A DNA stretch of 54,097 nucleotides from Desulfobacterales bacterium (GTDB lineage Bacteria; Desulfobacterota; Desulfobacteria; Desulfobacterales; JANQIE01), in assembly GCA_028282295.1 (NCBI GenBank), contig JANQIE010000043.1, positions 1 through 54,097 on the forward strand. The letters are read 5' to 3'. A program made the position numbers and the translations under genes. Below the pieces are notes generated by a model. It ran no database searches. It saw only the letters and a program-made list of their open reading frames with translations, and was not told the DNA's origin. Shown here piece by piece: positions 8,236 to 53,910 of this stretch; the first letter of the stretch is position 1; each line of letters begins with the position of its first letter.

Positions 8236-9316
8236 CGGTTTGATCCTCCATAGCCATCAGTTTTTCGTAAAATCCGGTCAGATTCGTATCGTTGAAGTCT
8301 TCGAGCGGGTATTGCAGATGAACCAGGTTGTAGCCTTTGTGGCGGGCCAGTTCTTCCAGATGCCGGATCTTTTGCCCGCGGTCCATTTGTTCAAAAGAGG
8401 CCGGCGCCTCCTGCGGCCGGTTGGTGTCGGTGTCAGGATAGGGCGGCTCCGGCCCGGGATCTGCCAGGGGTGTCTCTGTGAGTGTGTCCGGTTGGGTGTC
8501 GGGGTGCGGAATCGGCACGGTGGCACCGGGTTGACCAATTGGTGGGGCCGGCAGGCCGTTCGGGGCGGGCATACCAAAGACCCCGGCCGCGGCGTTGGCC
8601 GCGGCCAGCAGCATGGTCTGCTTGACCAGCGGATCGTTGTAGTCGGGCCGGAACACGACCCGTACCATGACGAACGGTTGCTGCAGTTCCTGCCGGGTGT
8701 AGTGCGACTTGGTGTTGAGGATCGACTTGATGACGCGGGCCTTGGCGCCCGACTCGGCCTTGGTCACGGCATGACGCCGTTCCATCCGCATGTCCCGCTT
8801 CACGCAGTAATTGATATAGTCCTGCCTGTCTTCGGATGTCTTCAGCCGCCGGTTTTTGCGCGCCTTGGCCTCGTACTGCTCCTTTAAATCATCTTCGATC
8901 ACGTGCATGTTCTTGCTGTAGGTGCTGACCATGGGGCTGGACAGCGTGCCATCCGGCTGCCGGATACCGCCCACGGCCTGATACGTGACAATGTCCGGAT
9001 CGTCCCCCGGTATCTGGCCCGATTTGTACGGGTCCCAGGCAATCTGGGCGCAGTTGGCAAGCTTCAGGTAGGCTTGATAGTGCAGGAAAAACGTGCCCTG
9101 TTTGGCGCCGTTGGGGTAAACATCACCGGCGTTAGGATCGGGGTCGAGCCTGACAATATCGACCACGGGCTGGTGAAACTCGGAGTATTCTTCCAGCCGG
9201 ACACTCGGCTTGAGAATGTTGGCGCCCTGACGGCGGTATTCTTCGATCTGCTCCATGACGGTGCGGGCCTTGCCCATGCGCTGATCGTCGGGATTATTGT
9301 GGTTTTTTGCTTGCAT
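8219..9316 (-). CDS. Candidate single-strand annealing protein (RecT/Sak-like)
   Basis: 365 residues with a perfect AAAGGAGG ribosome site. The first 250 residues form a mixed domain containing KAESGAKARVIKSILN followed by Y-x4-ELQQPFVMVRVVFRPDY. That resembles the layout of phage ssDNA-annealing/recombination proteins, where alanine- and lysine-rich helices precede a conserved strand. The C-terminal third is low-complexity Pro/Gly-rich, then a short acidic tail ending DDIPF, as in SSB-like interaction tips. Its place directly before SbcD/SbcC supports recombination. The family assignment is tentative, and a DNA-binding scaffold is an alternative. Confidence 0.4.
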   Translation of the reverse strand: MQAKNHNNPDDQRMGKARTVMEQIEEYRRQGANILKPSVRLEEYSEFHQPVVDIVRLDPDPNAGDVYPNGAKQGTFFLHYQAYLKLANCAQIAWDPYKSGQIPGDDPDIVTYQAVGGIRQPDGTLSSPMVSTYSKNMHVIEDDLKEQYEAKARKNRRLKTSEDRQDYINYCVKRDMRMERRHAVTKAESGAKARVIKSILNTKSHYTRQELQQPFVMVRVVFRPDYNDPLVKQTMLLAAANAAAGVFGMPAPNGLPAPPIGQPGATVPIPHPDTQPDTLTETPLADPGPEPPYPDTDTNRPQEAPASFEQMDRGQKIRHLEELARHKGYNLVHLQYPLEDFNDTNLTGFYEKLMAMEDQTDDIPF

Positions 9317-9508
9317 AACGGCCTCCTTTGTTTTTTGCCATCCGTCATGAACCGGTTTCTTTTCTTAGGCAAAACCTGTCCCTACCGACTTACCGCCCCC
9401 TTCACGGAGCGCGCCCGGGTCTGTTTTGCTTCGTTTTTGTGTAATTGGCTCAGCGGTCGGTCAGCTTCCACGCCATCAAACCGGTCCGGCCAATGCCTGG
9501 TAATCAGG

Positions 9509-9832
9509 TTATATTTCTAAGCGGTCAATGATCTCACGGAAATCATTTACGAGAGCCTGGACCTCTCTGAAATTGGCTCGAATCTCGTCAGCCAATGGTG
9601 CCACCTTATCCGGCGTTTGCTTACTGTTTTCTATGACATCACCAGCCTTGTTTTCTTTCTCAGGGCGCAGAATCGGATTTAGTTTTTCATAAAGATGTTC
9701 TTTTAATCCGCGTGCTTTTTGGATGGACGATCGTAGCCTGTTCAATTGTTCAACTATTTGAGGTTGCTGATCGGCGGCGGGTATGCCCATGCCGGTATCA
9801 CCGCAACATTCCACTAATTCTGTCTTATTCAT
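9509..9832 (-). CDS. Hypothetical coiled-coil protein
   Basis: 107 residues with AAAGGA ten bases before the ATG. After a short N-terminus with CCGDTG, the rest is charged and heptad-like (EQLNRLRSSIQKARGLKEHL and EIRANFREVQALVNDFREI), predicting two helices that could dimerise. No enzyme motif. It belongs to the leftward early operon, 192 bp before the recombinase-like gene; that gap shows no convincing gene. Confidence 0.5.
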   Translation of the reverse strand: MNKTELVECCGDTGMGIPAADQQPQIVEQLNRLRSSIQKARGLKEHLYEKLNPILRPEKENKAGDVIENSKQTPDKVAPLADEIRANFREVQALVNDFREIIDRLEI

Positions 9833-9859
9833 TTGATTGGGGTCCTTTGAGATGTTCGT

Positions 9860-10270
9860 TTATTGTCTGGCGATATTTCTCCGCCGATTTTCTCGCCCGC
9901 TACGCATAAAGGCGTTCTCGATTTTTTTCATATAATTTCTAAACCGTGCCTCGTGCCCCCGTGCAGAATCATTGGGGATAGCCACCCATTCACCGTTGTC
10001 GTGGCCGATAATGGTTACATCCCAACGGCGGACAGCCTCACTGAGAGTTTTGTACCAATAGCCAAATCCGGTTTTGGGGCAATGAATCCACCACCCGCCG
10101 TGACCCTCGCCGAAACGAACCGTTTCGCTCGGTCCGCGCGGTGGTATCGCCTCATCGTATTTTGGCAATGCGTTTAGTCGGTCCATCATTTCAAATTCTA
10201 TTGGACGCGCTTCATCTGCAATTTGCTGCCTAATAAGCGCCGACCCTCTGTTATACGCTGCTACTCCCAT
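9860..10270 (-). CDS. Hypothetical early protein
   Basis: 136 residues from ATG 10270, with AAGGGA at good spacing. Mid-protein it has Gly/Trp-rich GEGHGGWWIHCPKTGFGYWYKTLSEAVRRW, a compact beta-rich region; the C-terminus is basic (SGRENRRRNIARQ). I do not recognise a family. It lies ten bases after the previous gene's stop in the same operon. Confidence 0.5.
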   Translation of the reverse strand: MGVAAYNRGSALIRQQIADEARPIEFEMMDRLNALPKYDEAIPPRGPSETVRFGEGHGGWWIHCPKTGFGYWYKTLSEAVRRWDVTIIGHDNGEWVAIPNDSARGHEARFRNYMKKIENAFMRSGRENRRRNIARQ

Positions 10271-10279
10271 AGTTTTCCC

Positions 10280-10810
10280 TTACTCCTCGGCTATGCTCTG
10301 TCGGTACTTCTCCACCGATTTTTTGACCGCATCAAAATGCTCGTTACTTCGGGCGACCACGGCACCGATATCGGACCGGCCCAACATCTTCTGGTGAAGC
10401 TCGGCCAACGACAGCCAGTCGCTGTGCATTTCAGCCGGCAGGCTGTCCTTGTCCGGCACCACCTCGTCACGGCAGCGCAACTCGCAATCAACCATTTCGG
10501 CCAGCCGCGCCACGATGGCGCGCGCAATCTTGTCGCCGCCGGCCTCGCGCATCATGCGCAACAGCGTGCGTTCAAATTTCTCGATCGGATTCTGCCGGAT
10601 CGACTCCTCGTCCACATATCCGGGTTTGGCGGTCCAGCGCTGCAACGTGCGTGTCTGAACCTTGAACAGGTTGATCAGGTAGGTGTCGCCGATAAGATCA
10701 CGACAGGCACTCAGGTATTCACGTGAATCGAACGGTATTGCGGTCGTTTTGGGCACCGTTACGTCCTCGCTTTTGTGAATTCGTTTCATTATCCTGGCGA
10801 TGTGGCGCAT
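10280..10810 (-). CDS. Helix-turn-helix-like early regulatory protein
   Basis: 176 residues. The segment LINLFKVQTRTLQRWTAKPGY (about 44-64) has the spacing of a helix-turn-helix, and the rest is helical and charged. Position directly after the Cro-like gene resembles that of CII or other early regulators in lambdoid phages. Start uncertain: ATG 10810 lacks a clear ribosome site, while ATG 10789 has AGGA only two bases away. A 7-bp inverted repeat overlaps the first start. Function inferred from position and the putative motif only. Confidence 0.5.
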   Translation of the reverse strand: MRHIARIMKRIHKSEDVTVPKTTAIPFDSREYLSACRDLIGDTYLINLFKVQTRTLQRWTAKPGYVDEESIRQNPIEKFERTLLRMMREAGGDKIARAIVARLAEMVDCELRCRDEVVPDKDSLPAEMHSDWLSLAELHQKMLGRSDIGAVVARSNEHFDAVKKSVEKYRQSIAEE

Positions 10811-10829
10811 AGCGTCGTAACAACGCTAT
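10809..10829. promoter_or_regulatory. Inverted repeat at the start of the 10280-10810 gene
   Basis: ATAGCGT (10809-10815) and ACGCTAT (10823-10829) are perfect 7-bp inverted arms around a 7-base spacer that itself has partial symmetry. Its location over the start codon fits an operator or a translation-blocking hairpin. Confidence 0.35.
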
Positions 10830-10844
10830 GGTAGTTGATTTTGC

Positions 10845-11087
10845 CTAAGCGGCTGTTTTTGTTTCACAATTTTCTTCGAGAAAGGCTTTTTTTATCGTGA
10901 CTGAATCACCAAACATCCAGGTTTGGCGGGAAATGCAGAAACCTAATTCTTCACAAGCCTTTTCGAGTTCAATAGCCCGGTCGCGGCTCATGTTTTTTCG
11001 GCGCGCGATGTAGTCGCAGAGGTTAGTGGTTGAAATTCCGGTAATTTTTTTAATTTTTAATAACGTGCCTTTAGGAAGCCTATTCAT
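10845..11087 (-). CDS. Cro-like small DNA-binding protein
   Basis: 80 residues with GAGGAG five bases before the ATG. The segment LLKIKKITGISTTNLCDYIARRKNMSRDRAIELEKACEELG reads as the helix-turn-helix and following helices of YdaS/Cro-type proteins. It is transcribed divergently from the repressor across a 112-bp gap and is the first gene of the leftward operon, the classic place of a Cro. It probably competes with the repressor for the operators at 11101-11152. Confidence 0.65.
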   Translation of the reverse strand: MNRLPKGTLLKIKKITGISTTNLCDYIARRKNMSRDRAIELEKACEELGFCISRQTWMFGDSVTIKKAFLEENCETKTAA

Positions 11088-11100
11088 AAGTTCTCCTCAT

Positions 11101-11152
11101 TTGCGTACACAATATACCCCAAAAAAGTGTATGTCAAGCATATATTACGCAA
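11101..11152. promoter_or_regulatory. Candidate operator pair flanking the leftward promoter
   Basis: TTGCGTA (11101-11107) and its inverse TACGCAA (11146-11152) bracket the promoter at 11109-11137, with AT-rich ATATAC/ATATAT extensions on their inner sides. A protein dimer bridging both half-sites would cover the promoter. Binding by the repressor or the Cro-like protein is inferred. Confidence 0.5.
11109..11137 (-). promoter_or_regulatory. Leftward early promoter
   Basis: On the minus strand, consensus -35 TTGACA (11132-11137), 17-bp spacer and -10 TATTGT (11109-11114); an overlapping TATATT gives a 15-bp spacer. It would start transcription about 15 bases before the Cro-like gene's ribosome site. 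Confidence 0.65.
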
Positions 11153-11170
11153 TATTTAAGAATTGTTTTT

Positions 11171-11176
11171 TATAAT
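11171..11176 (+). promoter_or_regulatory. Putative -10 box of the repressor gene
   Basis: Perfect TATAAT 24 bp before the ATG at 11200. No good -35 is visible at 16-18 bp, which would suit a weak or activated maintenance promoter. Confidence 0.4.
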
Positions 11177-11199
11177 ACCCCGTGATAGTGAATTATCTT

Positions 11200-12027
11200 A
11201 TGAAACCATCTGAATTTTTTAGAATTGCGATAAAAAAAATACTCTCGGAACGGAGAGTTTCGCAGAAGGAATTTGCAAAAAAAATTGGTGAGTCTCCACA
11301 GGTCTTTAACGATTATTTGGCAGGTCGGCGCAATTATAGTGAAAAGAAAGAAGCCAAGATCGCGGAATTATTGGGCATAACCCATATGGAAGTGGTTTTG
11401 TTTGGCTTGGAGATAGAAAAGAAATCTTCAAACGTTGAGGATAACAGGCCCGACTATCGTACTCAGAACAGTTTGGTAGCGCCAGATACCAAAAGCGCTA
11501 AAAAAGCTGAGCAAAGCCTGAGCCGGTTATCCATACTTGCGCAAATTCCACTCAAAAACTGCTCGGGTTGGGCGGATTGCCTCGCCCTATGGCTAGGGGT
11601 TGAGTATGATGCGTTGATCGGTTGGATTGAAAACGACGAAATCCCTCAGCCCGTCATTAAACTGATTGCCGATCGAGGCTACGCACCATCCGGCTGGTTG
11701 TTGAGCGAACCGAACCAGGAAGGCCGGTTAAGTGAAACCGAACAGAGATTCAGAGCACTGGCTAAGCTGGCAGGTGTCAAAATCGGTGTCCAATGGGCGG
11801 ACCGGTTGGCCGCGAAGATCGGCGTAGACAGCCTGGAATTAACACAAAGCCTTTATAATGATAAAATCCCGCCTGAATTGATCCAACGAATAGAAGCGGC
11901 CGGTTACCCCGCAATGACGTGGGCCGCAAACCAATACGACCAGAAATCCCGGCACGAAGAGATTGTTGAACTGCGGCAACGGCTCCAGGCGCTTGAAGCC
12001 AAGGTTGCCAAACTCACAGACAAGTAG
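11200..12027 (+). CDS. Phage repressor with XRE HTH plus two CI-type HTH repeats
   Basis: 275 residues from ATG 11200; upstream GTG codons at 11182 and 11188 would add up to six residues. Residues 13-60 form an XRE-type helix-turn-helix (VSQKEFAKKIGESPQVFNDYL). Residues about 109-172 and 183-247 are two related repeats sharing WADxLA, GV, D-x-IP, I-x2-I, GY and W, the pattern of the bacteriophage CI helix-turn-helix domain. Residues 252-275 are a leucine-heptad coiled coil likely to oligomerise. No LexA-like peptidase (Ser-Lys) is present, so induction cannot be by RecA-stimulated self-cleavage of this protein. Divergent to the Cro-like gene. Confidence 0.72.
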   Translation: MKPSEFFRIAIKKILSERRVSQKEFAKKIGESPQVFNDYLAGRRNYSEKKEAKIAELLGITHMEVVLFGLEIEKKSSNVEDNRPDYRTQNSLVAPDTKSAKKAEQSLSRLSILAQIPLKNCSGWADCLALWLGVEYDALIGWIENDEIPQPVIKLIADRGYAPSGWLLSEPNQEGRLSETEQRFRALAKLAGVKIGVQWADRLAAKIGVDSLELTQSLYNDKIPPELIQRIEAAGYPAMTWAANQYDQKSRHEEIVELRQRLQALEAKVAKLTDK

Positions 12028-12044
12028 CTGTACCACTCCCACTG

Positions 12045-12072
12045 AATAGAAATTGTTCGAAATATTTCTATT
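12045..12072. promoter_or_regulatory. 28-bp palindrome upstream of the acyltransferase gene
   Basis: AATAGAAAT (12045-12053) and ATTTCTATT (12064-12072) are perfect 9-bp arms around a 10-base spacer containing TTCGAA. It lies between the repressor stop and the acyltransferase ribosome site. It lacks a T tract, so an operator is more likely than a terminator. Confidence 0.45.
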
Positions 12073-12095
12073 AATCTCTAAACGTGGGAGGGCCT

Positions 12096-12731
12096 ATGAG
12101 ATTTACGGATTTATACAAACCGGATTTTTTTGAAAAGCTGGATACTGCCGGAATCAGTGTGCGCATAGCGCGGACAAAGCGGGATCTGGAACTCGCAAAG
12201 ATGATACGGCGCACCGGTTACCGCATGTACGGTACAATTGATGGGGACGAAGATGAGGAACCGGAAGCGACCGTTTTTTTAGCCGTTGATGACGATCGTA
12301 AACCGCTCGGAACGATCCGGGTGATTGATCAGCAAAAAGAACGGATCGAACTTAGCGAATTTGTTGACATCGATTTGATGTTGGACGAAAATGAAAAACC
12401 GTGCGCCGAGGCCACCCGTTTGGCAATATTGAAAAATCCGAAAGCAATTCTGATAAAACTGCTGCTCTGGAAAGCATATTTTCTCTATTGTCAGCGATTC
12501 AATGTTCAGACAATGCTGGTCTCGGCCCGGCCCATATATGCCAGAAACTACAATTGGCTTCTTATGCGCGACATGGGTGAGCAGGGCGTTTACAGACACC
12601 GCCACTTGAAAGGCAAGATTCATCGCACATTCAAGATGAATGTTCCCGGTATGAAAACGTTGTGGAAAAGCGCCCGGCATCCCATGTATAACTTCATTTA
12701 TAGAGATCGGCATGACATAAAAATGCATTGA
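12096..12731 (+). CDS. FeeM-like N-acyl amino acid synthase / GNAT-fold acyltransferase
   Basis: 211 residues from ATG 12096, with GGGAGG upstream. After an N-terminal helix the protein shows the acyl-transferase pattern of FeeM and PEP-CTERM-associated acyltransferases: an R-rich helix ending RRTGYRMYG (38-46), ATVFLAVDDD (58-67), GTIRV (72-76) and EATRLAI (105-111). FeeM joins acyl chains from acyl-ACP to amino acids and is structurally related to LuxI-type acyl-homoserine lactone synthases. So it probably makes an N-acyl amino acid or related lipid signal, in the cytoplasm or at the membrane. Neighbours: the repressor before it and a 7TM sensor after it. Substrate unknown. Confidence 0.6.
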   Translation: MRFTDLYKPDFFEKLDTAGISVRIARTKRDLELAKMIRRTGYRMYGTIDGDEDEEPEATVFLAVDDDRKPLGTIRVIDQQKERIELSEFVDIDLMLDENEKPCAEATRLAILKNPKAILIKLLLWKAYFLYCQRFNVQTMLVSARPIYARNYNWLLMRDMGEQGVYRHRHLKGKIHRTFKMNVPGMKTLWKSARHPMYNFIYRDRHDIKMH

Positions 12732-12740
12732 TATGTATGC

Positions 12741-12762
12741 ACTGCCCGCATTAATGGGCAGT
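12741..12762 (+). terminator. Putative terminator after the acyltransferase gene
   Basis: ACTGCCC and GGGCAGT form a 7-bp stem around 8 bases, extended by weaker outer pairs and followed by a T-rich stretch that is not a clean T run. It starts nine bases past the stop. Confidence 0.4.
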
Positions 12763-12923
12763 ACATATTTCTTTACTTCCATGTATGCCCCCATGGTCTG
12801 TGCAATCCGGAGCGGACATTCCTTTTAGGGGGCAGGCACCAAATTTGCTATACATAGTAACTTGTTCGCATTGCCAACAGCTACTCCACGGTAACTTCAA
12901 TTAAAAGCCAGCGGAGATTTGCA

Positions 12924-14255
12924 ATGAGTTTGTATTGCATCCCAGCGGTAGTTGCGTCCGCACTGATTTTTGTGCCACTGTGTTTTACGGTGAAATTTTT
13001 CAGGAACGGTTTAAAACCCAAACTGCTCACCCTTTTTCTCTTGGAGTCCCTATGCTGCATGGTCTTTGAATATTTCGTGATCAATGCCCGGTCCCCGGAA
13101 CAGTGCCTGTTCTGGGACAGGATGATGTATGGGCCGATTGTCCTACTGCCCTGTTCTTTGCTTTGCATCATAAGGCAGTACGATCACGGCTTTACAATCA
13201 AAGACGTATTGCTGATCCATCTGCCGGCAATTTTTTTCATCGTCCTGCTGCCAACCCCCCATTTTTTAACCGGAGTTACCAAAGAATACTGGGGATGGGG
13301 CAAAGTCGTGGGATCTGCCTACATCTATTTCAAAGTCTATTTTCTGGTCTATCTTTCCTATTTTCTATTCCAGACCATCCGGTCGTATATCCAGGAGACT
13401 GATCTGAAAATCAAAAATGAAATCGCGGTGTTATGTCTTGCGGTCTGGCCCTCGGTTTTAATGGGCATCGGCATTATCTGCATTTTTCCGATTTTCAACA
13501 TTCGGCTTCTGAATATTATGGGGGTTGCCTTCACACTGACATACCTGAGTTGTGTGATGACGTATGCGATCCTGTCAAAACGTTTATTCGACATCCACTC
13601 AAAGGTGCCTGTATTTGGACGCCGGAAAAACCGTTTTCAACACCGGCTTAAACTGACCAGGCGCAAACCGATCATGTCATACGAGGCGATCATCACTGAG
13701 CTGTCGGATGTTTTTCAATGCAACACCGCGATCCATGTGCTGGCCGATGGGCGGATCTATGCCAATCGAGACTGCGATGAAGCGTTTGTGCAGTTCCATG
13801 ACTGGGGATTGTTCGCAGGCGGCTCCGAAATCATCCTGGTCAGCGAGGTGGATGATCCGCGTGTCCGGCAAGTCATGCAGTGGCATGGCATCGAGGCTGT
13901 AATGCCGTTGTTTGAACAAAACCGGGTAACCGCGATCATAAAATTCGGCGAAGGATTCCTGAATCAGGTTTACAGTTGGCAGGATATGAATCTGATCGGC
14001 GCTTTGTGCCGTCAACTGGAAGTGGCGATGCACTTTATCCGGCATTTAAGAAACAGCCTGGAAGAAGCCAATGGTAAAATAATGAAGTTGACCGGCACTG
14101 TCGAGAGAATAAAGGCGCAGATCAACAAACCTGTTCTGATCTTCAAATCCGGCGGTGAGATCTGCAGTATTCGATCAACGGGACCGGTAAATGTTGTGTA
14201 CGTTGATTGCGACGCTAAAGAAATTGTACCGATTCGGAGCGAGGGCGTCGTTTGA
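12924..14255 (+). CDS. 7TM-GAF membrane sensor lacking a kinase domain
   Basis: 443 residues, with GGAG eight bases before the ATG. About seven hydrophobic helices fill residues 1-215, matching the 7TM N-terminal module of PrsK-like histidine kinases. Residues about 250-375 look like a GAF domain (FQCNTAIHVLADG ... WQDMNLIGALCRQLEVAM), followed by a coiled-coil helix. The expected DHp and ATPase domains are absent; about 50 residues of unassigned sequence end the protein. It could sense a hydrophobic ligand at the membrane and signal through a partner. The neighbouring FeeM-like gene suggests the ligand, but this is inference. Confidence 0.6.
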   Translation: MSLYCIPAVVASALIFVPLCFTVKFFRNGLKPKLLTLFLLESLCCMVFEYFVINARSPEQCLFWDRMMYGPIVLLPCSLLCIIRQYDHGFTIKDVLLIHLPAIFFIVLLPTPHFLTGVTKEYWGWGKVVGSAYIYFKVYFLVYLSYFLFQTIRSYIQETDLKIKNEIAVLCLAVWPSVLMGIGIICIFPIFNIRLLNIMGVAFTLTYLSCVMTYAILSKRLFDIHSKVPVFGRRKNRFQHRLKLTRRKPIMSYEAIITELSDVFQCNTAIHVLADGRIYANRDCDEAFVQFHDWGLFAGGSEIILVSEVDDPRVRQVMQWHGIEAVMPLFEQNRVTAIIKFGEGFLNQVYSWQDMNLIGALCRQLEVAMHFIRHLRNSLEEANGKIMKLTGTVERIKAQINKPVLIFKSGGEICSIRSTGPVNVVYVDCDAKEIVPIRSEGVV

Positions 14256-14410: not shown

Positions 14411-15049
14411 ATGGGTAAACGTTTTAAAATACTGGCTAAGTATTTCTTTTTCAAAACAGATATTGAGAAGGAAGTGCAATTAACTGAGAAAATTCTATCT
14501 GAAAAGGTTGCCTTGACGAAGGATATAAAAACCTTGTCCGCTGAGGCTATTCGTTCTGGCCAGTCTTTTGATGAGGTTTGTATAAAGCTTGATGCTGAAA
14601 TTAAAGAATTAAAAGTGTATCTGAATGCGTATAAGACATTTTTGGATAACGGCCAGCATGTTTTTGAGTGTAAGCTATGCAACCAAAAAATCAGAATTAA
14701 GGATTTTGAGAATAATGCACGGATAACATGCCCGAAATGCAAGATTAGAATGTTTCTTTCCAAAAACAGCTTCGGCGACCTATGGATCAAGTATGATAAA
14801 CAACAAGATAGGGATGCGCGACAAAAATCTGAAAGTGGATCGAGGGCACAATTAAGGCCCTACTTCGAGATTTTAGGGATCGCAAACAGTTCTTCATATA
14901 TTGAAATAAAAAAAGCCTACCGCGAGGCACTCAAAAAATACCATCCCGACAAAGTGAGTCATTTCGGCGTTGAATTTCAACAATTGGCTGAAATAAAGAC
15001 GAAAGAAATCAACGAGGCTTTTTTTAAATTATCAGAATATTTTTGTTGA
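14411..15049 (+). CDS. Zinc-ribbon plus C-terminal J-domain protein
   Basis: 212 residues, AT-rich compared with the phage backbone. The N-terminal 80 residues are coiled-coil-like. C87-x2-C90 and C107-x2-C110 (CKLC, CPKC) make a zinc ribbon. Residues about 148-210 are a J domain with YFEILGI, AYREALKKYHPDKV (HPD 178-180) and a final helix, so it should recruit and stimulate an Hsp70 such as DnaK. C-terminal J domains on odd scaffolds occur in accessory and defence genes. No strong ribosome site precedes the ATG. It starts a cluster with membrane and secreted proteins. Confidence 0.65.
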   Translation: MGKRFKILAKYFFFKTDIEKEVQLTEKILSEKVALTKDIKTLSAEAIRSGQSFDEVCIKLDAEIKELKVYLNAYKTFLDNGQHVFECKLCNQKIRIKDFENNARITCPKCKIRMFLSKNSFGDLWIKYDKQQDRDARQKSESGSRAQLRPYFEILGIANSSSYIEIKKAYREALKKYHPDKVSHFGVEFQQLAEIKTKEINEAFFKLSEYFC

Positions 15050-17551: not shown

Positions 17552-18073
17552 TTAAGGATCCGGTAATGAGGACAGCTCCTGCAATGTGCCCTGATTTTCA
17601 TGAACGGCAGCCAGGTTTTTGGTATCTGTTTCAATCGCGAGAAGAACTTTTGATACCACGCCTTCCAGATCGTCTCTGACCTCATGTTCCCAGAACCGCA
17701 GGACGGTCCAGCCGTCCCTGCGCAGTTCCTCCGTGATCCTCCGGTCCCTTTCAACATTTCCCCTGATCTTTTTCCTCCAGAAAGCGGCATTGGTCTTCGG
17801 GGACACGCCATGCTCGGGGCAGCCGTGCCAGAAGCACCCGTCGACAAAAACGGCGATCCGTTTTCCGACAAACACGATATCCGGACGGCCTGGAATCTTG
17901 TAGTGAAGGCGGTATCTGGCACCTTTGCGCCACAGGGCCTTTCGCAGCAGAAGCTCGGGTTTCGTGTTTTTGCCGCGGATCCGTGACATGCACCGGCTTC
18001 TCTGCGCCGGTGTCATAACGTCGGTGCGTGCTGCTTCCTGATCGGTCATTGGGTCGATTCGTTCGCTATTCAT
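17552..18073 (-). CDS. vsr: Vsr-type very short patch repair endonuclease
   Basis: 173 residues; ATG 18073 overlaps the upstream endonuclease gene by 8 bp, and an internal ATG follows eight codons later. The hallmark regions are present: MTPAQRSRCMSRIRGKNTKPELLLRKALW, GRPDIVFVGKRIAVFVDGCFWHGCPEHG (catalytic Asp, zinc-site His/Cys) and RDGWTVLRFWEHEV. Vsr nicks beside T:G mismatches made by deamination of 5-methylcytosine, so it protects the genome from mutations caused by the C5-methyltransferase of the same operon. The C-terminus after about residue 150 is less conserved. Confidence 0.9.
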   Translation of the reverse strand: MNSERIDPMTDQEAARTDVMTPAQRSRCMSRIRGKNTKPELLLRKALWRKGARYRLHYKIPGRPDIVFVGKRIAVFVDGCFWHGCPEHGVSPKTNAAFWRKKIRGNVERDRRITEELRRDGWTVLRFWEHEVRDDLEGVVSKVLLAIETDTKNLAAVHENQGTLQELSSLPDP

Positions 18074-19199
18074 CCCCCTCGGAATCGGGGAATGCGATTG
18101 TTATCTCATCGCCGAAATCAAGTCGTTCAGGTTCGATTGAAAAGCCGTCGGCTCTTACCCCTGCAGGCAGGGATTTCAGGGTCTCCACTATGGCCTTGGT
18201 AAATGCGCCGACATTTTCGGCAATGCGCATTTTCGCCGAATCCGGCTTGACCCTGTAAAGACGGTAGATGTCATATGGTACTGCATTTTCGGTCATTTCA
18301 AGCATCTCCGCCATTGAGACGTGGACCGGATTCCGGAAGTCCCCGCTGGTGGATTTCGCGTCGATTTTTCGCACGATGTTTTCCATTTCAACAATGCTGA
18401 AGTCAAACGGGGATATCGCGTTGCCGGCGGAATCCCACCTGAAGCCTGAAAACGCGCCCTTCTCCTGCTCAGCCTCCAGCCAGAGGTTCAGCAGTTCCTC
18501 TCCCATGTTGCCGATCCGTTCGGCGTTTCGCCGGGCCTTGTCGAACTCGTCACGGCTGACCCCCCGCGCCCTGCGCCGCTTTCCGAGGCGGCGGGTTCCC
18601 TCGATGCCTCCCTGGACCGCATCCTCAAGGGCATCCATATCGACAAGGTCAAGAACCGGGTGCCCGTCCTCCATCGCCAGTTCCTCTATCAGGCCGGAAA
18701 GTTCCTCCGGGTTGACCACCGTCATGCCCTTTCGCGGGGAAAATACGCCGCTGTAGCGGTTGTGCAGAGCTTCAAACAGGGGTCTGTCTTCAGCAAGCGC
18801 CTGTGCCACGAGGTGCATGCGTGCGCTCTGCGGTTCCGGGCCGCCCATGAACTCGATAATCGCAAAATCCCCCTTTTGAAGTGAATTGTAACGCTGTTCA
18901 TCCTCGTAGGGGTTGCTGATGAATTCACCGTCAAGGCGCCAGTTTTTCTTCTGCTTGAGAATCTTGCGCTGAAGATTCTGCAATCCGGCCTTTCCCGGTC
19001 CGTAGATGTGCAGATCCAGCGGGATCCGGTCCCGTGTAATATCCATGCTGTCGGGAAGGCCGGGATAAAGCCTGTTCACGAATATCGATGCGTCGAGATT
19101 GAAGGCTTTCTGTTTCGTACCCGAGGTGTTGCGGAAATGGTGCTCGAAAAGCGTCAGGTCAGACGCCGACAGCCGCTTGAGTGCGATTTTCCTCTTCAT
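18066..19199 (-). CDS. Restriction endonuclease with DUF3883-like PD-(D/E)xK domain
   Basis: 377 residues. The N-terminal 200 residues form a DNA-recognition-like region without known motifs. The C-terminal part matches the DUF3883/NERD-like nuclease pattern: GNMGEELLNLWLEAEQ, then SPFDFS and RKIDAKSTSGDF (catalytic D ... D-x-K), then HVSMAEMLEMTENAVPYDIYRLYRV. Sandwiched between a C5-methyltransferase and vsr, with overlaps on both sides, it is very probably the type II endonuclease of the system. The recognition sequence is unknown. Confidence 0.72.
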   Translation of the reverse strand: MKRKIALKRLSASDLTLFEHHFRNTSGTKQKAFNLDASIFVNRLYPGLPDSMDITRDRIPLDLHIYGPGKAGLQNLQRKILKQKKNWRLDGEFISNPYEDEQRYNSLQKGDFAIIEFMGGPEPQSARMHLVAQALAEDRPLFEALHNRYSGVFSPRKGMTVVNPEELSGLIEELAMEDGHPVLDLVDMDALEDAVQGGIEGTRRLGKRRRARGVSRDEFDKARRNAERIGNMGEELLNLWLEAEQEKGAFSGFRWDSAGNAISPFDFSIVEMENIVRKIDAKSTSGDFRNPVHVSMAEMLEMTENAVPYDIYRLYRVKPDSAKMRIAENVGAFTKAIVETLKSLPAGVRADGFSIEPERLDFGDEITIAFPDSEGDE

Positions 19200-20664
19200 C
19201 TTGCTGATTCTCCCTCAACTGACACAGAATGGTTTCGGCCAGCGCCCTTGCCATCAGCGGCGGCACTGCGTTGCCGATCTGCCGGAAGGCCGGATTCATC
19301 GGTCCTTCGAAAACGAACCCGTCCGGAAACGACTGCAGACGGGCCGCTTCCCGGACCGAAATGGTTCTGGCCTGGGTGCTGTCATAGTGAATATGCGAAT
19401 AGCTGTCTTTTCCAAGATGCGCCATCAGGGTACGGGCCGGTTTGTCGGCCTCCATTTTTCTCCATTTGTTCGGAAATTTCCCCGGATCATACGGTGGCAC
19501 ATGGTCCTTCCATTCCTGTTGATACCGTTTGCTTCCCTTCCCGGGCCTTTTCCCTTCCTCTGCCTTGATCCCGGCCATGCGTTCCTCGAACATCCTTACG
19601 GCCAGAGCGTGTGCCTGTGGATACTGGTCGCCCGGCTTCAGCCGGGCAAAGATCTTGTAGTCGCGGGGAAGGTAACGGATGACATGGTCCCACACACCGT
19701 CACCGGCCTCGAATCCGGGCCATGTTCTCATCAGGGTCTGGTACCCGGTCAGTTCAACATTCTCCATATAGGGCACTTTGTTGTTGAACCTTCTAGGGCC
19801 TTTTTTCAGTTTCTGGTCGGAATCATCCGCGATTCCCGGCAGGTCCGACAGCGCCTGTTCCGCCGTAACGGCAGGCAGCGAGTTGTGCGGGTCGGCAGCG
19901 GGGGGCTTCACGAAATAGCAGGTATCTCTGAACAGGCCGTACCGAACGGTCTGCATCGCCACCTGACGGGTTCCGTGATAGCCTTTGGGCAGTCTGATCC
20001 AGTGAGTGGGTTCCGGGAACCAGTTTCGTGCGCCGAGCAACTTGTGATAGGCCACCAGGAACATTCTTTCCCGCATTTCGGGAACACCGAAATTCACGGC
20101 ATTGAGCAGGGTGTAGCGCGGTTCGTATCCAAGACCTTCCAGGACCTCACAGATTTCTTCCGAGATATTGTGCCCGCCGTAGTTGAGAACGTCGGGAACG
20201 TTTTCAATCAGAAGCGCCACCGGCCTGAAGATCTTTACATAATCGAGATACTGAAGATACAGGTTGCTTCGGGGGTCCTGGAGAAAGGCTTCCGGATCCT
20301 CCGCGACCTCCCGCAGCTTTGCCCGGCCGACCCGCGCAAACGCTTGGCACGGGGGACCGCCGATGATGATGTCAAAATGCGAGTCAACCGGCCCTTTCAG
20401 ACCATACTCAGCAACAAGGTCCCGGGGTTTTATCTCGATGATATCCCTTGGTCTGGCGTGGATTTCAAAAAGCTCCGGGTTTTCCTCATGACAGAAGTTT
20501 CTTGCATGAGATCTGGCCGCCGGCGGATCAAATTCCACCGCGCCACGGATGCTGAACTGAGCCGAATGAAAACCGAGCGACAAACCGCCGCACCCTGCAA
20601 ACAGGTCCAGCACCCTGGGGCGCTGTCCGTTACGGATGCGTTCGATTTTTTCCTGAATCGTCAT
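19159..20664 (-). CDS. dcm-like: DNA (cytosine-5) methyltransferase
   Basis: 501 residues from ATG 20664; a TTG at 20712 would add 16 residues, and neither has a strong ribosome site. Motif I DLFAGCGG (20-27), motif IV GGPPCQAFA with catalytic C106, motif VI ENV (154-156), motif VIII-like RERMF, and motif X QIGNAVPPLMA near the C-terminus are all intact. The target recognition region lies at about 250-430. It methylates cytosine at C5 and protects host and prophage DNA from the linked endonuclease. It is the first gene of the three-gene leftward restriction operon and overlaps the next by 41 bp. Confidence 0.93.
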   Translation of the reverse strand: MTIQEKIERIRNGQRPRVLDLFAGCGGLSLGFHSAQFSIRGAVEFDPPAARSHARNFCHEENPELFEIHARPRDIIEIKPRDLVAEYGLKGPVDSHFDIIIGGPPCQAFARVGRAKLREVAEDPEAFLQDPRSNLYLQYLDYVKIFRPVALLIENVPDVLNYGGHNISEEICEVLEGLGYEPRYTLLNAVNFGVPEMRERMFLVAYHKLLGARNWFPEPTHWIRLPKGYHGTRQVAMQTVRYGLFRDTCYFVKPPAADPHNSLPAVTAEQALSDLPGIADDSDQKLKKGPRRFNNKVPYMENVELTGYQTLMRTWPGFEAGDGVWDHVIRYLPRDYKIFARLKPGDQYPQAHALAVRMFEERMAGIKAEEGKRPGKGSKRYQQEWKDHVPPYDPGKFPNKWRKMEADKPARTLMAHLGKDSYSHIHYDSTQARTISVREAARLQSFPDGFVFEGPMNPAFRQIGNAVPPLMARALAETILCQLRENQQDEEENRTQAAVGV

Positions 20665-20819
20665 ATTGTGAAACGGTATCTGGCGGTAGAGGTTAGTTGT
20701 ATGATTTTCCAACCAATTGTTTGTGACGACATATCACAACCAAGCAGGATTATAAATCCCCTATCATATTTCAATCGCTGCCACAATATATAAACTGATA
20801 TATGGGTAATGGGCACAAT

Positions 20820-43789: not shown

Positions 43790-46700
43790 ATGGCTGATTT
43801 TTCGCTCGAAGATATCGATCTTGATGAGTTTGTGGCCGAGGGTAAAAAACTGCTTGATGAGCAAAAGCTTGAAGCAGCTCGGCAGCGTTACGGCCAGCAA
43901 CCGCCGGACCGCGGTCTTGCCGGAGAACTGTGGCAAGGGCTCAAGGTCGGGCTTGGCGACCGGCTGCCTCTGGGCGTGGCTCAGGCGATCCGGGGCGGCG
44001 ATGTCGGTACGGAAAAAGGCGTTATCGGCCGCGGTCTCGATCGTTTCATTGAAGGGCAGAAAGAGGACCTGAGAAACAACGTACCATCCCGGCAGGTGGT
44101 TTTGGGTGATGAATGGCATCGCGCCATGTATGAAGGCCCTCAGAACACGGCCTTCAGTCTGGGGCTGGCCGCGTCGGGCATGGTGGCCGGAGGTTTGGGT
44201 GCTGCCGCGGCAACACCGGTCCCGCACCCGGCGGCCAAGGTGATCGGTGGAGCCATCGGTGCGGCCGGATCGACTTATCTGGGCATGTTCAGGGCGGCCA
44301 GGGATGAGTTCGTTGACCAGATCTATGACGAAATCGGTCAGGACATGCAGCCGGAGCAATGGGACCGGGTCAGACAGCGGATCGATGCCGACGCCCAGAA
44401 ATTCGGTCATGCCGAGGCCGGACCCGAAGCGATCGCCAACGCGCTGGAAACCGCTTTTATGCGACTGCCGGTTTCTAAGTTTGTGCCCGTTGATAAAATC
44501 CGGAATTTCGCATTGAGGTCAGTGGCAAAGGTGGGCACGAAGTTGGGCGGTATCGCTGCGACGGAACTTCCGACCGAAACGTATACCGCAAAACAGCAAC
44601 GGGACATTCTTGCCGAATACGGCCTGGCCGAGCCGGCCGGTTATGCGGAAGCATTCAAGGAAGTGGCCGGTCCCACCATGGTCGGTTCTGCCCTGATTGG
44701 AGGCGGCCTGGGGATGACCCGCCGGATAATGGACAGGCAAGGCAGGGCGCTTGCTGAAGATCCTGATATCGTCGAGGTGGAAAAAGCCGGGGCGCCGGCT
44801 GGCAAACCGGTTGCGAAAACACCTGATCCGGATGAACCGGGAACGCCCGACCAGGCGGGCCGGATCGACGATGAAGAATCCTATTGGCAGGCCCAGGAAG
44901 CCGAAATAAGGCGCCAGCGGGATGAGGCGGGTAAAGTAGTGGCCGAGCCGGTGATCGATCGCTCAGCAAGGAAACGCGCCGCGAATCAGGCCGAAATAGA
45001 TCGGTTGGCAAAAGAAGCAATTGCAGCCGAACAGCAGGCCATCATCAACCGGCAGAAAAAGATGGGTTTGCGCAAATCAGGCCGGGTCGCGGGGCAGGGC
45101 GTCGATCCGGACAAGCAATACCAGGAAATTGCGCAACGCCTGGGCATCACCACACCACCGCAGACGCCGGCGCTGCCGGCCGGTCAGGGTTTTGAACTTG
45201 TAGGTGACAAGCCGAAAGGGTTTGAGGTTGTTCCGTCGGAAACCATCAATTTGCCCCATGAAGAAGCTGCTCCGGAAGGTGATCAGAGCAGGAGGGATGC
45301 CGAACCGTCGGGAAAAGTGGATAACGATCCAAAAGAACAGGTCGGTAAAGACCGGCTGGTCCACAAGCATAGTAACACCCAGGTCAGTCTTCCCGAAGCG
45401 CATGCACGGGCAGTGACCGAATTTGGCCGCAGGATTCCGGAGAATGAAATCTACACTGACCCGGACGATGATTCATATGGCCGCGAAGCAAAGCCTCATA
45501 TCACGATCCGATACGGCATGGATACACTGGACCCTGCTGAAATTGCACCGGCATTCAAAGATCTGGGGCGGATCAAGGCCAGGATGGGAAAAGTTTCTGT
45601 CTTTGAGACCGATAAATATGACGTGGTCAAGGTCGATATCGATAGCACGGATCTGCGCGAAGCCAACAAAATGGTGGGGGAAACGGTCAAGCTACCTGGT
45701 GAAACCTTTAAAAACTACATCCCCCATGCCACCATTGCCTATGTGAAAAAAGGTGAGGGGAAGAAGTATGTGGGCGACAAGACCTTCGAAGGTCGCGAAG
45801 TTACGTTTGATCATGTTGTGCTGAGCGCCAAGGACGGGAGGGAACATAAGATCCCCCTGGGTGGTTCGGTTTCAAAACCAAAGGTGAGCCCCAAGGACCT
45901 TCAGGATCTCGGTGAAAAAACCGAAAAAGGCGTCGCCCTTGCCAATGTCAAGGACAGCAAAAAGTCAAAGCATCATATTCGTGTGGCGATAGGAGTGCAT
46001 CATTTCACAAACAAGGATATCCCAGGGCTTTTCAAAAAGCAGAAAATCATCCGGAATCCGGACGGATCTGCTGCCATTGTCAATACAAGGTCCGGAAAAA
46101 GCCTGACCATCGAGTTTGTTGACCGGATCGACGAAAACACCATTGACTGGTCGGCCTACGGGGGCAAAAAACCGGACGGGCAGACAGTGGGCCGGTACAT
46201 TCCGGGTAAGAATCGGATGCAACTGCTAAAGGGCCAAGCCGATATTTGGACCCTGAATCATGAAGCCGAACACTGGATGGAAGATGCCGGGCTGATCGAC
46301 AAACACGAACAGAACCTTTTAAAAGCGGAAATACGTCGCAGGCATAAAGCCGGTAAATGGCGCACGTTGAATCCCCGGGACGTTGGCGGCCGGGAGGACC
46401 GGGCCGAATATCTTGCCAGACGGCTGGCAGAACGGCGATTCCGGCGGGATCGATCCGTGATTCGCCGCATTTTGCAACGGATCGCTGATTTTATTGACTG
46501 GATGGCAAATCTGGCCGGCAGGCGCACCGCATCGGCAACTGTTCGTGAGGTCGAGTCGGGTAAAATCTTCGAGCGGCAAGCAGGCCCGCCGCCGGAGAAG
46601 ACGGAACAGGCACGTTCTCTTGCCAGCGTAAAGCCCGACGATTTGAAGCCTGGCAAAGATAATGAAGACATTTTTGAAGGCATTGAGCCGGCCGGGAAGA

Positions 46701-49468
46701 AAACAGCGGCATCATGGATCAGGCGTGAGACCGGCGCGTTTGTCCGCACGCTGGCATCGTACCGGCCCAAAAACCTGTCTCATCTCACCTTCATGGAGCG
46801 GGTCCTGAAATCACCGGAATGGTACGAACATCCGGTGATGAAGCGTATCGTTCGTCTGGCCGTGAATCGGCACGATCTGTTTTCAGAGACCTTTAACGGC
46901 TTGAATGAACTGAACAACCCCACTGACAGCCATGATACTGTCACGGATGCGACTCAGGCGTTGAAACATAAAGGCTTGTCGAAACGGCAGGTTTTATCCG
47001 GCAAGACATCGAAGGAATATCAGGGCCTGTTGCGGATGATCGACGAGGGCGACACCCACTGGTACAGGCCCGAGATGAAGCAGTACCGTGAAGGGGTTCA
47101 GGAAGCATATTCCAAGAAGGTGCCGGACCTGAATGAATTGAGTCGTCTGCGCAAGATGCGAGAATCGCAGGTCGCTGAGTTTGAGAAAGACTACCTTGGC
47201 CAAGGCGTGTCCAAAGAAACAATCAAGGTTTGGCGCATGCATCGCGATGCTTATGATGCTGCGCTGGACAAGTTGCTGGATCCGATGCGGGAACTGCTGG
47301 AAAAGATCCGGGAAGAATCCGCCTTCAAGGGAGAGGATGAATCGAATCTGGCTGATTTCATGGCCTATCGTGATGACAAAGGGCAGGTCCGCAAGCTTTC
47401 ATTGAAAGAAGTGATTGCCGAGATGGAGGAGTGGCGCGGGTTTTATGCCCCCAGAATGAGAGAGCAGGGCGATTGGGTCGTTCGCTCGAAAAAGGGAAAT
47501 ACCTACTACCGTTACCATAAACCAACCCGGTACCAGGCGGAACGGCTCGGATCAAAACTGGAAATGGAAGGGCATCGTGTCGAAAAACCGTTCGAGAACC
47601 CGAAACCGCCCGAATCCCTGCTGGAGCATATCAAGGCCATGGACGCGGCCAAGCTGCTGGAACATGCATCGGAAAAGACGGGCCGGGACAATATCGATGC
47701 CGCGCTCAAGTTCAGGGAAGAGCTGTTGCGGCAGACCGCGGACATGATCCGGGCCCGGGGTTTTCGCTCGACGATGATACACCGAAAACGGGGCGATGTT
47801 GTCAAGGGGTATATCGAGGATCCGGCGCAGCGGTTTGTCCAGTACATCAACAACCTGTCCGGAGGATTGTCCAAGGCCCGGACCGCAGCGGACATGACCG
47901 AAGCGTTTCTGGGCAAATGGGCCGATGGGCAGCGGGTCGGCGGGATCGATGCGGTGAAAGAGCCCCGGGCCCACGAAACGGCCCGGTCCTATATCGAGGA
48001 ACAGCTTCGCAACGCTGAACTGGCGGACCGGGTCATCGGCACGGCCAAGACCGTGGCAACCTTCAAGTACCTGGGCCTGCCCAATATCCGCGCGCCGTTT
48101 GTCAACCTGACCGCCATGGTGACCACGGTGCCGGCCGCGATCCATGAATATGTGATGCAGGGCAAGGGGCCTTTCAGGGAAATCGGATCCGCTCTTTTAA
48201 AAGCGGGGCAGGACTACACCCGTTACATGACGGGCAAAAAACTGACGCTTGTGGCTGATGAGCAACGTTTCCTGGATGAGATCAAACGGCTCGGCTATGA
48301 CGATCCTCAGTATACGCGCGATGCGTTGGGAACGATTCAGAAACTGCACGGCAGGCTGTTTGCCAAAACAATGCAAAAATCGATGTGGCTGTTTGGCAAA
48401 ACCGAGCAGTGGAACCGGGGCGCCACGATGCTGGCCGCATACAGGATCGCGAAGCGCCGCAAAATCGGCCGGACCGATGCGGATCGGATGGATCTGGCCC
48501 GCAAGGTAACTGAAAAGGCCCATGGCATTTACGGCCGGGCCACGCTGCCGGCCTGGGCGCAGGGGCGCAATCCGGCGGCCAAGGTGGGGCAACTGCTGTA
48601 CGTGTATCAGAAGTTCGGTCATAACTGGCTGCAGATGCTTTACGATCTGGGTGTAAAGCGGCGCAATGCCAAGGCGTTTATCTGGGCAATGGCCTCTCCG
48701 GTGGTTCTGGGCGGGGCCGCTGCCATGCCGTTCAAGGGGGTTGCCGTGGCGCTGGTCGGCTACCTGTTGAAGTCGACCGGGGATGACCGGGATCCGGAAA
48801 AGATGGTCTTTGACGGGTTGAGACGGCACCTGGGAGTGCGCGGGGAGAAGGTGGTTCGTTACGGTGCGGTGGGGGCGCTGGGGGGCGATATTTCAGGATC
48901 CTTTGCCTTTGATCCGGGGGTTCCCAAAAATCTCTGGGATTGGGCCGGACCGATCGGTGGCGTGGCCCAGGATATCAAACAGGCCCTGCGGTTTATCGAA
49001 ACCGGCCAACCGGCCCGGGCCCTGGAAGCGGCGCTGCCACGGGGTGCCGCCAACCTGATCACCGCGTTCAGGGAAAAAGGGCAGGGCGCCCGCACCCGCA
49101 GCGGTGCCCGGATCTGGGACGAAACCGGCAGGATACTGATTCCGGATAACCGCGATACCGTGCTGCGTCTTCTGGGGTTTCGCTCGTCACGCAGAGCCGC
49201 GCTGCAGGCCCGGCAGTGGGAGACCAGAAGGCAACAGAAACGGTTCCGGGACAGGCTCGATAAGATTTATGAAAAGTATCGCGCATATCTTGCCGCACCG
49301 TCGGAAAAGCTGCATAAGGAAGTCATGCGCGAAATCGACCGTTATAACAGAAACCTGCTCGATTCGGACCTTGCGGGAACCGTGCCTTTTATCACCCGGC
49401 GCGCGCTCAAAGCACAGGCCCGCAACATGGCCCGACCGCGCAAAGCGCAGCGGGCCTATTTACGGTAG
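43790..49468 (+). CDS. Giant ejection/polyvalent protein with 2H-phosphoesterase and HExxH motifs
   Basis: 1,892 residues. A hydrophobic Gly/Ala-rich segment near 117-172 could enter membranes. After a polar linker come two HxT motifs, HITI (H570) and HATI (H646), 76 residues apart with beta strands around them: the 2H phosphoesterase signature that hydrolyses 2',5'- or cyclic-phosphate links. HEAEH (824-828) is an HExxH zinc-metallopeptidase motif. The final 700 residues are helical, with ARKVTEKAHGIYGRATLPAWAQGRNPAAKVGQLLYVYQKF, resembling large-polyvalent-protein-associated domains. It should be packaged and ejected into the host with the DNA, so these domains may act on the host before transcription starts. 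The enzyme activities are predictions. Confidence 0.7.
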   Translation: MADFSLEDIDLDEFVAEGKKLLDEQKLEAARQRYGQQPPDRGLAGELWQGLKVGLGDRLPLGVAQAIRGGDVGTEKGVIGRGLDRFIEGQKEDLRNNVPSRQVVLGDEWHRAMYEGPQNTAFSLGLAASGMVAGGLGAAAATPVPHPAAKVIGGAIGAAGSTYLGMFRAARDEFVDQIYDEIGQDMQPEQWDRVRQRIDADAQKFGHAEAGPEAIANALETAFMRLPVSKFVPVDKIRNFALRSVAKVGTKLGGIAATELPTETYTAKQQRDILAEYGLAEPAGYAEAFKEVAGPTMVGSALIGGGLGMTRRIMDRQGRALAEDPDIVEVEKAGAPAGKPVAKTPDPDEPGTPDQAGRIDDEESYWQAQEAEIRRQRDEAGKVVAEPVIDRSARKRAANQAEIDRLAKEAIAAEQQAIINRQKKMGLRKSGRVAGQGVDPDKQYQEIAQRLGITTPPQTPALPAGQGFELVGDKPKGFEVVPSETINLPHEEAAPEGDQSRRDAEPSGKVDNDPKEQVGKDRLVHKHSNTQVSLPEAHARAVTEFGRRIPENEIYTDPDDDSYGREAKPHITIRYGMDTLDPAEIAPAFKDLGRIKARMGKVSVFETDKYDVVKVDIDSTDLREANKMVGETVKLPGETFKNYIPHATIAYVKKGEGKKYVGDKTFEGREVTFDHVVLSAKDGREHKIPLGGSVSKPKVSPKDLQDLGEKTEKGVALANVKDSKKSKHHIRVAIGVHHFTNKDIPGLFKKQKIIRNPDGSAAIVNTRSGKSLTIEFVDRIDENTIDWSAYGGKKPDGQTVGRYIPGKNRMQLLKGQADIWTLNHEAEHWMEDAGLIDKHEQNLLKAEIRRRHKAGKWRTLNPRDVGGREDRAEYLARRLAERRFRRDRSVIRRILQRIADFIDWMANLAGRRTASATVREVESGKIFERQAGPPPEKTEQARSLASVKPDDLKPGKDNEDIFEGIEPAGKKTAASWIRRETGAFVRTLASYRPKNLSHLTFMERVLKSPEWYEHPVMKRIVRLAVNRHDLFSETFNGLNELNNPTDSHDTVTDATQALKHKGLSKRQVLSGKTSKEYQGLLRMIDEGDTHWYRPEMKQYREGVQEAYSKKVPDLNELSRLRKMRESQVAEFEKDYLGQGVSKETIKVWRMHRDAYDAALDKLLDPMRELLEKIREESAFKGEDESNLADFMAYRDDKGQVRKLSLKEVIAEMEEWRGFYAPRMREQGDWVVRSKKGNTYYRYHKPTRYQAERLGSKLEMEGHRVEKPFENPKPPESLLEHIKAMDAAKLLEHASEKTGRDNIDAALKFREELLRQTADMIRARGFRSTMIHRKRGDVVKGYIEDPAQRFVQYINNLSGGLSKARTAADMTEAFLGKWADGQRVGGIDAVKEPRAHETARSYIEEQLRNAELADRVIGTAKTVATFKYLGLPNIRAPFVNLTAMVTTVPAAIHEYVMQGKGPFREIGSALLKAGQDYTRYMTGKKLTLVADEQRFLDEIKRLGYDDPQYTRDALGTIQKLHGRLFAKTMQKSMWLFGKTEQWNRGATMLAAYRIAKRRKIGRTDADRMDLARKVTEKAHGIYGRATLPAWAQGRNPAAKVGQLLYVYQKFGHNWLQMLYDLGVKRRNAKAFIWAMASPVVLGGAAAMPFKGVAVALVGYLLKSTGDDRDPEKMVFDGLRRHLGVRGEKVVRYGAVGALGGDISGSFAFDPGVPKNLWDWAGPIGGVAQDIKQALRFIETGQPARALEAALPRGAANLITAFREKGQGARTRSGARIWDETGRILIPDNRDTVLRLLGFRSSRRAALQARQWETRRQQKRFRDRLDKIYEKYRAYLAAPSEKLHKEVMREIDRYNRNLLDSDLAGTVPFITRRALKAQARNMARPRKAQRAYLR

Positions 49469-53610: not shown

Positions 53611-53872
53611 GGTTTGGATGGTAAGGTGAGCTACAGAGGTAACAGGTCAATCAATGAATCTATATTTAGCAACGGCATATTTCCATCACAGAATCAGAAA
53701 GAAATTCCGCTATTTTTGATGCCATGTTTAAAGCGGAACGCTGATCATTTTGGTCACCAGCGTCTATGCTGTCCAATTTGATTGTGCAAGATGTTTGATA
53801 TTATCAATTTGTTATCAGTAGGATAATGAAGTTCCATAACTATAAGAAAATAAAGATAAAAAAATGTCGAAT

Positions 53873-53900
53873 TGGAGTTCGAGTCTCCCCTTCGGCACCA
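53873..53900 (+). other. Attachment site: 3' end of a tRNA-Leu-type gene
   Basis: T-stem 5' strand TGGAG (53873-53877), T-loop TTCGAGT, 3' strand CTCCC (one mismatch), acceptor CTTCGGC (53890-53896), A and CCA. This is the end of a tRNA whose acceptor would start GCCGAAG, as in many bacterial tRNA-Leu genes. No D-arm or anticodon arm lies upstream, so it is a partial copy left at one prophage end. Confidence 0.78.
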
Positions 53901-53910
53901 TTTTTATAAA

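Follow-up and report, generated by a model that had tools for sequence, protein, structure and literature searches.

A FeeM-type acyltransferase gene and a kinase-less 7TM-GAF gene in the presumed lysogeny operon of a Desulfobacterales prophage: a possible lipid signalling pair

The prophage and its repressor region

The window analysed here is a whole contig (C33) of 54,097 bp from a Desulfobacterales bacterium, and it carries most of one prophage. Among its structural genes, matches were obtained to families of terminase, portal, scaffold and major head proteins; Bcep22/PBC5-like podophages (among them Burkholderia JC1, Agrobacterium Atu_ph08 and Sinorhizobium PBC5) have head proteins with about 40% identity to the one encoded here. 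Near the right end lies attR (53868..53905), a copy of a tRNA-Leu 3′ end, in which 32 bp (53874-53905) equal the end of the tRNA-Leu(CAG) gene carried by a second contig of this genome, C202. On C202 that tRNA gene precedes a tyrosine integrase gene, and phage genes fill the rest of the contig; attL, the integrase and the early genes occupy positions 8731-14009 of that contig (L056). A PAPS-reductase-like gene is apparently divided between the end of C202 and positions 1-354 of the window. As attR is in the window and attL with the integrase is on C202, the phage is integrated at tRNA-Leu, and the window represents an integrated podophage-like prophage. Host DNA lies 3′ of attR and contains a repeat present genome-wide; at the very contig end (54015-54097) we noticed a hairpin-shaped, MITE-like repeat with dozens of matches across the host genome (57 listed in all).

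Two further regions of the prophage were noted. A 1,892-aa phage protein (ORF 43790-49468) includes a 2′-5′ RNA ligase-like stretch (45455-45826) which scored 26.9 bits against a cut-off of 27 and weakly matched the anti-CBASS protein Acb1. A leftward block at 17552-20712 encodes a Vsr endonuclease, a NO VEIN C-terminal-like (NOV_C) protein and a C5-cytosine methyltransferase, and is probably restriction-modification cargo of the prophage.

The XRE-type repressor gene (plus strand, 275 aa) extends from an ATG at 11200, a GTG at 11182 being also possible, to 12027, and was assigned by matches to Pfam HTH_3 and to PHROG repressors. The protein consists of an N-terminal HTH, two copies of a repeat of about 67 aa (residues 109-174 and 183-249, DNA 11524-11946; 33% identity, BLAST E 1e-8) and a coiled-coil-like C-terminal end. 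No S24 peptidase domain was found in it with Pfam, PHROG or NCBIfam, the duplicated 67-aa module standing in its place, and therefore this repressor may escape induction by the SOS route. On the minus strand, the gene of a putative HTH protein of 80 aa (10845..11087) heads the leftward early operon. This protein gave no family match above cut-off in Pfam or PHROG, and its HTH nature is suggested by its sequence and position; in known prophage switches the corresponding gene is 'hth', which is likewise counter-oriented. The divergent promoter/operator region between the two genes (11088..11199) holds a leftward promoter-like site, TTGACA-17-TATTGT (11137-11109), and an inverted repeat, TTGCGTA (11101) / TACGCAA (11146). 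The 80-aa HTH-like gene and the divergent promoters are thus followed, on one strand, by xre, an acyl synthase gene and a 7TM gene, and the latter three form the presumed lysogeny operon. A previous sequence-only reading of this DNA had placed the synthase and the 7TM gene beside the lysogeny switch, and this position holds for the integrated prophage. Also within the presumed lysogeny region we observed a gene for a DnaJ-domain protein with a zinc-finger-like stretch (14411-15049), and a membrane protein gene is among the further cargo 3′ of xre.

The acyltransferase and the RNA hairpins flanking its gene

The synthase gene (plus strand, 12096..12731, starting with ATG) encodes a protein of 211 aa, which the sequence-only reading had called FeeM-like on account of its GTIRV and EATRLAI motifs. 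Both motifs are present (residues 72-76 and 105-111), all three genes lie where that reading had put them, and the family assignment was borne out. The protein scored 32.8 bits against Pfam FeeM (PF21926), above the curated cut-off of 27. An AF2 model, built from a three-sequence alignment (mean pLDDT 79.8, pTM 0.82), was used for fold searches, in which six FeeM chains of 2g0b ranked first with Foldseek (E 4.5e-11) and VIA-align gave FeeM 2g0b a Z of 18.4 (rmsd 2.5, 169 residues), followed by the next entry at Z 15.4 and LasI at 14.6. Since GNAT acetyltransferases come after FeeM in the same search, with Z of 14 to 15, we considered whether the protein might be an ordinary GNAT enzyme acetylating a protein, a tRNA or a small amine, with no acyl signalling at all. 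This appears very improbable, because FeeM leads all other entries by 3 Z units, the Pfam FeeM score is over cut-off, and the enzyme has the Glu/Arg active-site pattern of acyl-amino synthases.

The active site includes Glu94/Gln97 in FeeM and Glu101/Arg104 in LasI (PMC9654057). Residues E105-A-T-R108 of the window enzyme align with E94-V-V-Q97 of FeeM and with the E-x-S-R of a phage LuxI protein, and E105, its predicted catalytic residue, is invariant in 11 family members and FeeM; R38, Y42, D53, R75 and R108 go with it. The enzyme thus combines the catalytic Glu common to the FeeM and LuxI families with a LuxI-like Arg at the second position. It is 18% identical to FeeM, and both Arg108 in place of Gln97 and Arg75 (of GTIR) in place of a FeeM Ser are LuxI-like. 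The LuxI-type E-x-x-R pair (E105/R108) and the R-x3-[FY] motif (R38/Y42) are both present, though partly common to some FeeM-family members. The LuxI sequence family gave no match to the protein, FeeM being the only Pfam family at E <= 1 and no LuxI model of NCBIfam appearing at E <= 1; by sequence profile it is a member of the FeeM family and not of the LuxI family. With the fold and catalytic Glu of the FeeM N-acyl amino acid synthase (2g0b, PF21926), acyl-amine chemistry is to be expected, and the protein is very probably an acyl-amine synthase; it differs from FeeM in being prophage-borne, and its product is a predicted one. The gene is single-copy, with two other FeeM-family genes in the genome, and PADLOC returned no defence-system match for the synthase or the 7TM protein.

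The 68-bp gap between xre and the synthase gene contains what had been described as a perfect palindrome with an operator-like role (12045-12072). Its two 9-nt arms are indeed perfect; they are separated by a 10-nt spacer and do not form a continuous palindrome. Such a repeat occurs in about 0.3% of shuffles of this gap, and comparable repeats are above chance in the window as a whole (17 observed, about 2.4 expected). The part of the claim that did not stand is the operator. The motif has no second copy in the window, including the divergent hth/xre region, where a different inverted repeat lies, and the site is enclosed by a 7-bp inverted repeat which the sequence-only reading had missed, CTCCCAC (12036-12042) / GTGGGAG (12084-12090). 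An RNA hairpin (12033..12092, plus strand) would account for this position: its 5′ arm begins 6 nt past the xre stop codon, and its outer stem CUCCCAC/GUGGGAG pairs with the Shine-Dalgarno sequence GGAGG of the synthase gene (12087-12091). The segment 12030-12098 folds with -18.9 kcal/mol (z -4.1), and in the longer context 12000-12130 the minimum free energy structure is kept, but with a z of only -1.0; no Rfam match to a known regulatory RNA was found. A hairpin masking the ribosome-binding site of the synthase thus seems a better fit than an operator, which is unlikely. Ribosomes finishing xre could open this hairpin, and translation of the synthase would then be coupled to that of the repressor. 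A second, terminator-like hairpin (12736..12767, plus strand; TATGCACTGCCC / GGGCAGTACATA, then a T-rich tail; fold z -4.1) follows the synthase gene and, with 192 bp in all, lies between it and the 7TM gene. The 7TM gene may therefore be transcribed less than the synthase gene, or separately from it.

The 7TM protein and the recurrence of the gene pair

The third gene (plus strand, 12924..14255) encodes a 443-aa 7TM protein with a GAF-like domain, a putative sensor. As had been read from its sequence, it lacks a kinase: it matched Pfam HisKA_7TM with 37.4 bits (cut-off 28.6), and no HisKA, HATPase or other known output domain was detected, both kinase domains being present in its relatives L145 and L146. 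Its GAF_2 score taken alone is only 15.4 bits, below the cut-off of 28.6, but the stretch aligns with the GAF region of the kinase relatives. The nearest relatives are kinases of 720-750 aa with the order 7TM-GAF-HisKA-HATPase, and the window protein ends where their kinase part would start. The Desulfobacterota HisKA_7TM kinases (L145, L146 and others) align with it over the N-terminal 7TM and GAF stretches at 24-33% identity and differ in that the window protein stops before HisKA/HATPase, so that by itself it cannot be a kinase. An AF2 model from the one sequence (pLDDT 42) was unusable. Around chromosomal Desulfobacterota kinases of this 7TM-GAF type (L154-L160), FabF-like ketoacyl synthase genes were seen nearby in six of the seven loci fetched and NtrC-like regulator genes near several, all named by reading the sequence and not by profile search; these neighbourhoods give a hint, no more, of a link of 7TM kinases with acyl metabolism and possibly of an acyl-sensing locus.

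The absence of the kinase part and the weak GAF part raise the question whether the two genes belong together. Both could be independent cargo: the synthase product would then be a surfactant or N-acyl amino lipid acting in the membrane or in superinfection exclusion, the 7TM protein would be an unrelated and perhaps degraded fragment of a histidine kinase, and their adjacency would be accidental. The terminator-like hairpin between the genes is in keeping with this. So is the finding that, in the order, FeeM-family genes lie away from HisKA_7TM genes: none of the 26 broader FeeM-family members had one within 10 kb, a weak negative, as contigs are fragmented and the initial search misses divergent members, including the gene of the window itself. 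Close relatives of the synthase in genomes were only two, both on Desulfobacterota chromosomes, and these nearest relatives had no 7TM neighbour, one being frameshifted and the other lying at its contig edge. As a separate observation, positions 8301-11300 of L043 (TRIP AH-1, an uncultured Desulfobacterium) hold pieces of at least two tandem FeeM-like genes, one of them frameshifted, adjoined by a methyltransferase gene and a run of Ns. The phage and virus collections contained no other copy of either protein and no related phage with the pair. Terminase relatives have almost nothing but the terminase in common with this phage. No match to synthase, 7TM, xre or hth turned up in the 48-kb contig of the closest portal and major head protein relative (50% portal identity), a contig that probably lacks the early region. 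In the more distant phage JC1 a repressor and a regulator gene are divergent, and the annotation shows no synthase next to them; the synthase-profile search of 32 records was run without a positive control.

Against accidental adjacency, the 7TM frame is open over 443 aa and has its own ribosome-binding site, and the same synthase subfamily adjoins another 7TM sensor in Burkholderiaceae. A plasmid search found synthase relatives on 13 Paraburkholderia/Caballeronia chromids (about 30% identity, E down to 6e-13), and in all eight loci examined (L205-L212, e.g. L208:8896-12774) a gene for a 7TMR-DISM-PAS-GGDEF-EAL protein comes directly after the synthase gene on its strand. The synthases of these eight loci diverge by up to 39%, and common flanking DNA is missing in 24 of the 28 locus pairs upstream and 25 of the 28 downstream. 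With eight of eight loci paired and flanks mostly different, the two genes appear to stay together while their surroundings change, although, all being from a single bacterial family, the eight loci do not count as eight independent events. The chromid pairs share with the window a homologous synthase gene followed by a same-strand 7TM sensor gene; they differ in the 7TM family, in a c-di-GMP output and in lying outside a prophage, and no phage repressor adjoins them in the annotated loci. We found no published description of such a pair of FeeM-like synthase and 7TMR-DISM-PAS-GGDEF-EAL protein, which is apparently an undescribed two-gene signalling unit. Though non-phage and with another 7TM family, it is the strongest evidence pointing to a synthase-sensor unit, and with it we regard independent cargo as improbable.

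The same loci bear on a further explanation, lysogenic conversion, by which the signal pair or lipid trait would alter host behaviour (surface, biofilm, second-messenger signalling or competition) with no input to lysis-lysogeny, and its co-expression with the repressor would reflect nothing more than the location of lysogenic genes there. On chromids the related Burkholderiaceae pair is found by itself, and its output goes to c-di-GMP enzymes instead of a phage switch; the prophage has other cargo 3′ of xre, namely the DnaJ-like protein, the membrane protein and the methyltransferase/Vsr/NOV_C block. The synthase gene, however, comes directly after the repressor gene, with an RNA element suggesting coupled translation, and the layout is like that of quorum-sensing switch modules (PMC13345283). 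Lysogenic conversion is somewhat unlikely in our judgement; it ranks next after a lysogen-made signal and before independent cargo.

A proposed lysogen-made signal and its comparison with known phage switches

We favour a signal circuit in which the lysogeny operon would yield the repressor and, partly by translational coupling, the FeeM/LuxI-superfamily acyltransferase, which would acylate a small amino compound with a fatty acyl chain, acyl-ACP being the probable donor, so that something like an N-acyl amino acid results. The adjacent gene would supply the likely membrane sensor, the 7TM-GAF protein, for this product or for a host counterpart; that it senses the synthase product has, in our estimate, slightly less than an even chance. 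Such a circuit would report lysogen density and feed into prophage maintenance and/or host behaviour; the kinase-less 7TM protein might, for instance, signal by way of its GAF domain, with a host kinase or the repressor as its target. As an account of the locus, an acyl signal made by lysogens and sensed at the membrane is the most likely one, with a probability of roughly 0.4. The sequence-only reading had proposed that lysogens could sense each other or the host, and this idea is better supported than that reading could know, through the recurrent Burkholderiaceae pair and the switch-like layout. Its phage-specific part, the link to lysogeny, we infer, since no related phage carrying the synthase-7TM pair was found. 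The product, the recognition of the ligand and the 7TM signalling route are likewise inferred, and that the circuit acts on lysis-lysogeny is doubtful. Counting against a signal circuit are the lack of a LuxR-type regulator among the ORFs scanned and of a 7TM output domain, the intergenic terminator-like hairpin, the finding of neither protein in a related phage or viral contig, the 0/26 linkage of FeeM and HisKA_7TM genes, the nearest synthase relatives having no 7TM neighbour, and the chromid pairs not being beside a phage repressor. More doubtful still is the widest reading, of a prophage switch using a non-HSL N-acyl lipid, a FeeM-type synthase and a kinase-less 7TM-GAF membrane receptor, as part of an undescribed class of synthase and 7TM receptor that also drives c-di-GMP enzymes in Burkholderiaceae.

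The natural role of N-acyl amino acids is largely open. The Paraburkholderia synthase-7TM pair gives a testable lead that such molecules may act as signals read by membrane receptors of their own, and as Paraburkholderia strains are cultivable, this lead is directly testable.

Among the closest known systems are the hth | xre-luxR-luxI modules of Phaeobacter inhibens T5 and other Roseobacter prophages, which in two Phaeobacter prophages are lysis-lysogeny switches whose autoinducer promotes lysogeny (PMC13345283, a 2026 preprint). The window module shares with them a counter-oriented small HTH-type gene, divergent promoters, xre as the first gene of a presumed lysogeny operon, an acyl-signal synthase of LuxI/FeeM fold in that operon, and a repressor in which no S24-type peptidase was found. 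It differs in that its synthase, in the luxI position, is of FeeM type by Pfam and a 7TM-GAF protein takes the receptor position, in its phage group and host phylum, and in being known from sequence alone. No LuxR-type match was found in any gene of the xre operon or among the ORFs scanned (Pfam, PHROG, NCBIfam). Having neither a luxI-family synthase nor a luxR gene, the module resembles the hth | xre-luxR-luxI switch in its likely working and is not an instance of it. With the phage LuxR-type receptors (PMC9894119) and the arbitrium system of Bacillus phages it would share its proposed purpose, the turning of population cues into lysis or lysogeny. Phage communication described so far, as far as is known, uses peptides or LuxR-type and similar cytoplasmic receptors (as introduced in PMC13345283). 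If the proposed circuit is true, phage signalling would take in a further lipid class, sensing at the membrane and the Desulfobacterota, and our results suggest, without proof, that these viruses could gauge one another's numbers by a kind of signal not yet seen in viruses: whereas the LuxR-type receptors and arbitrium act in the cytoplasm on HSLs or peptides, the window would pair a predicted non-HSL lipid with a membrane receptor-like protein.
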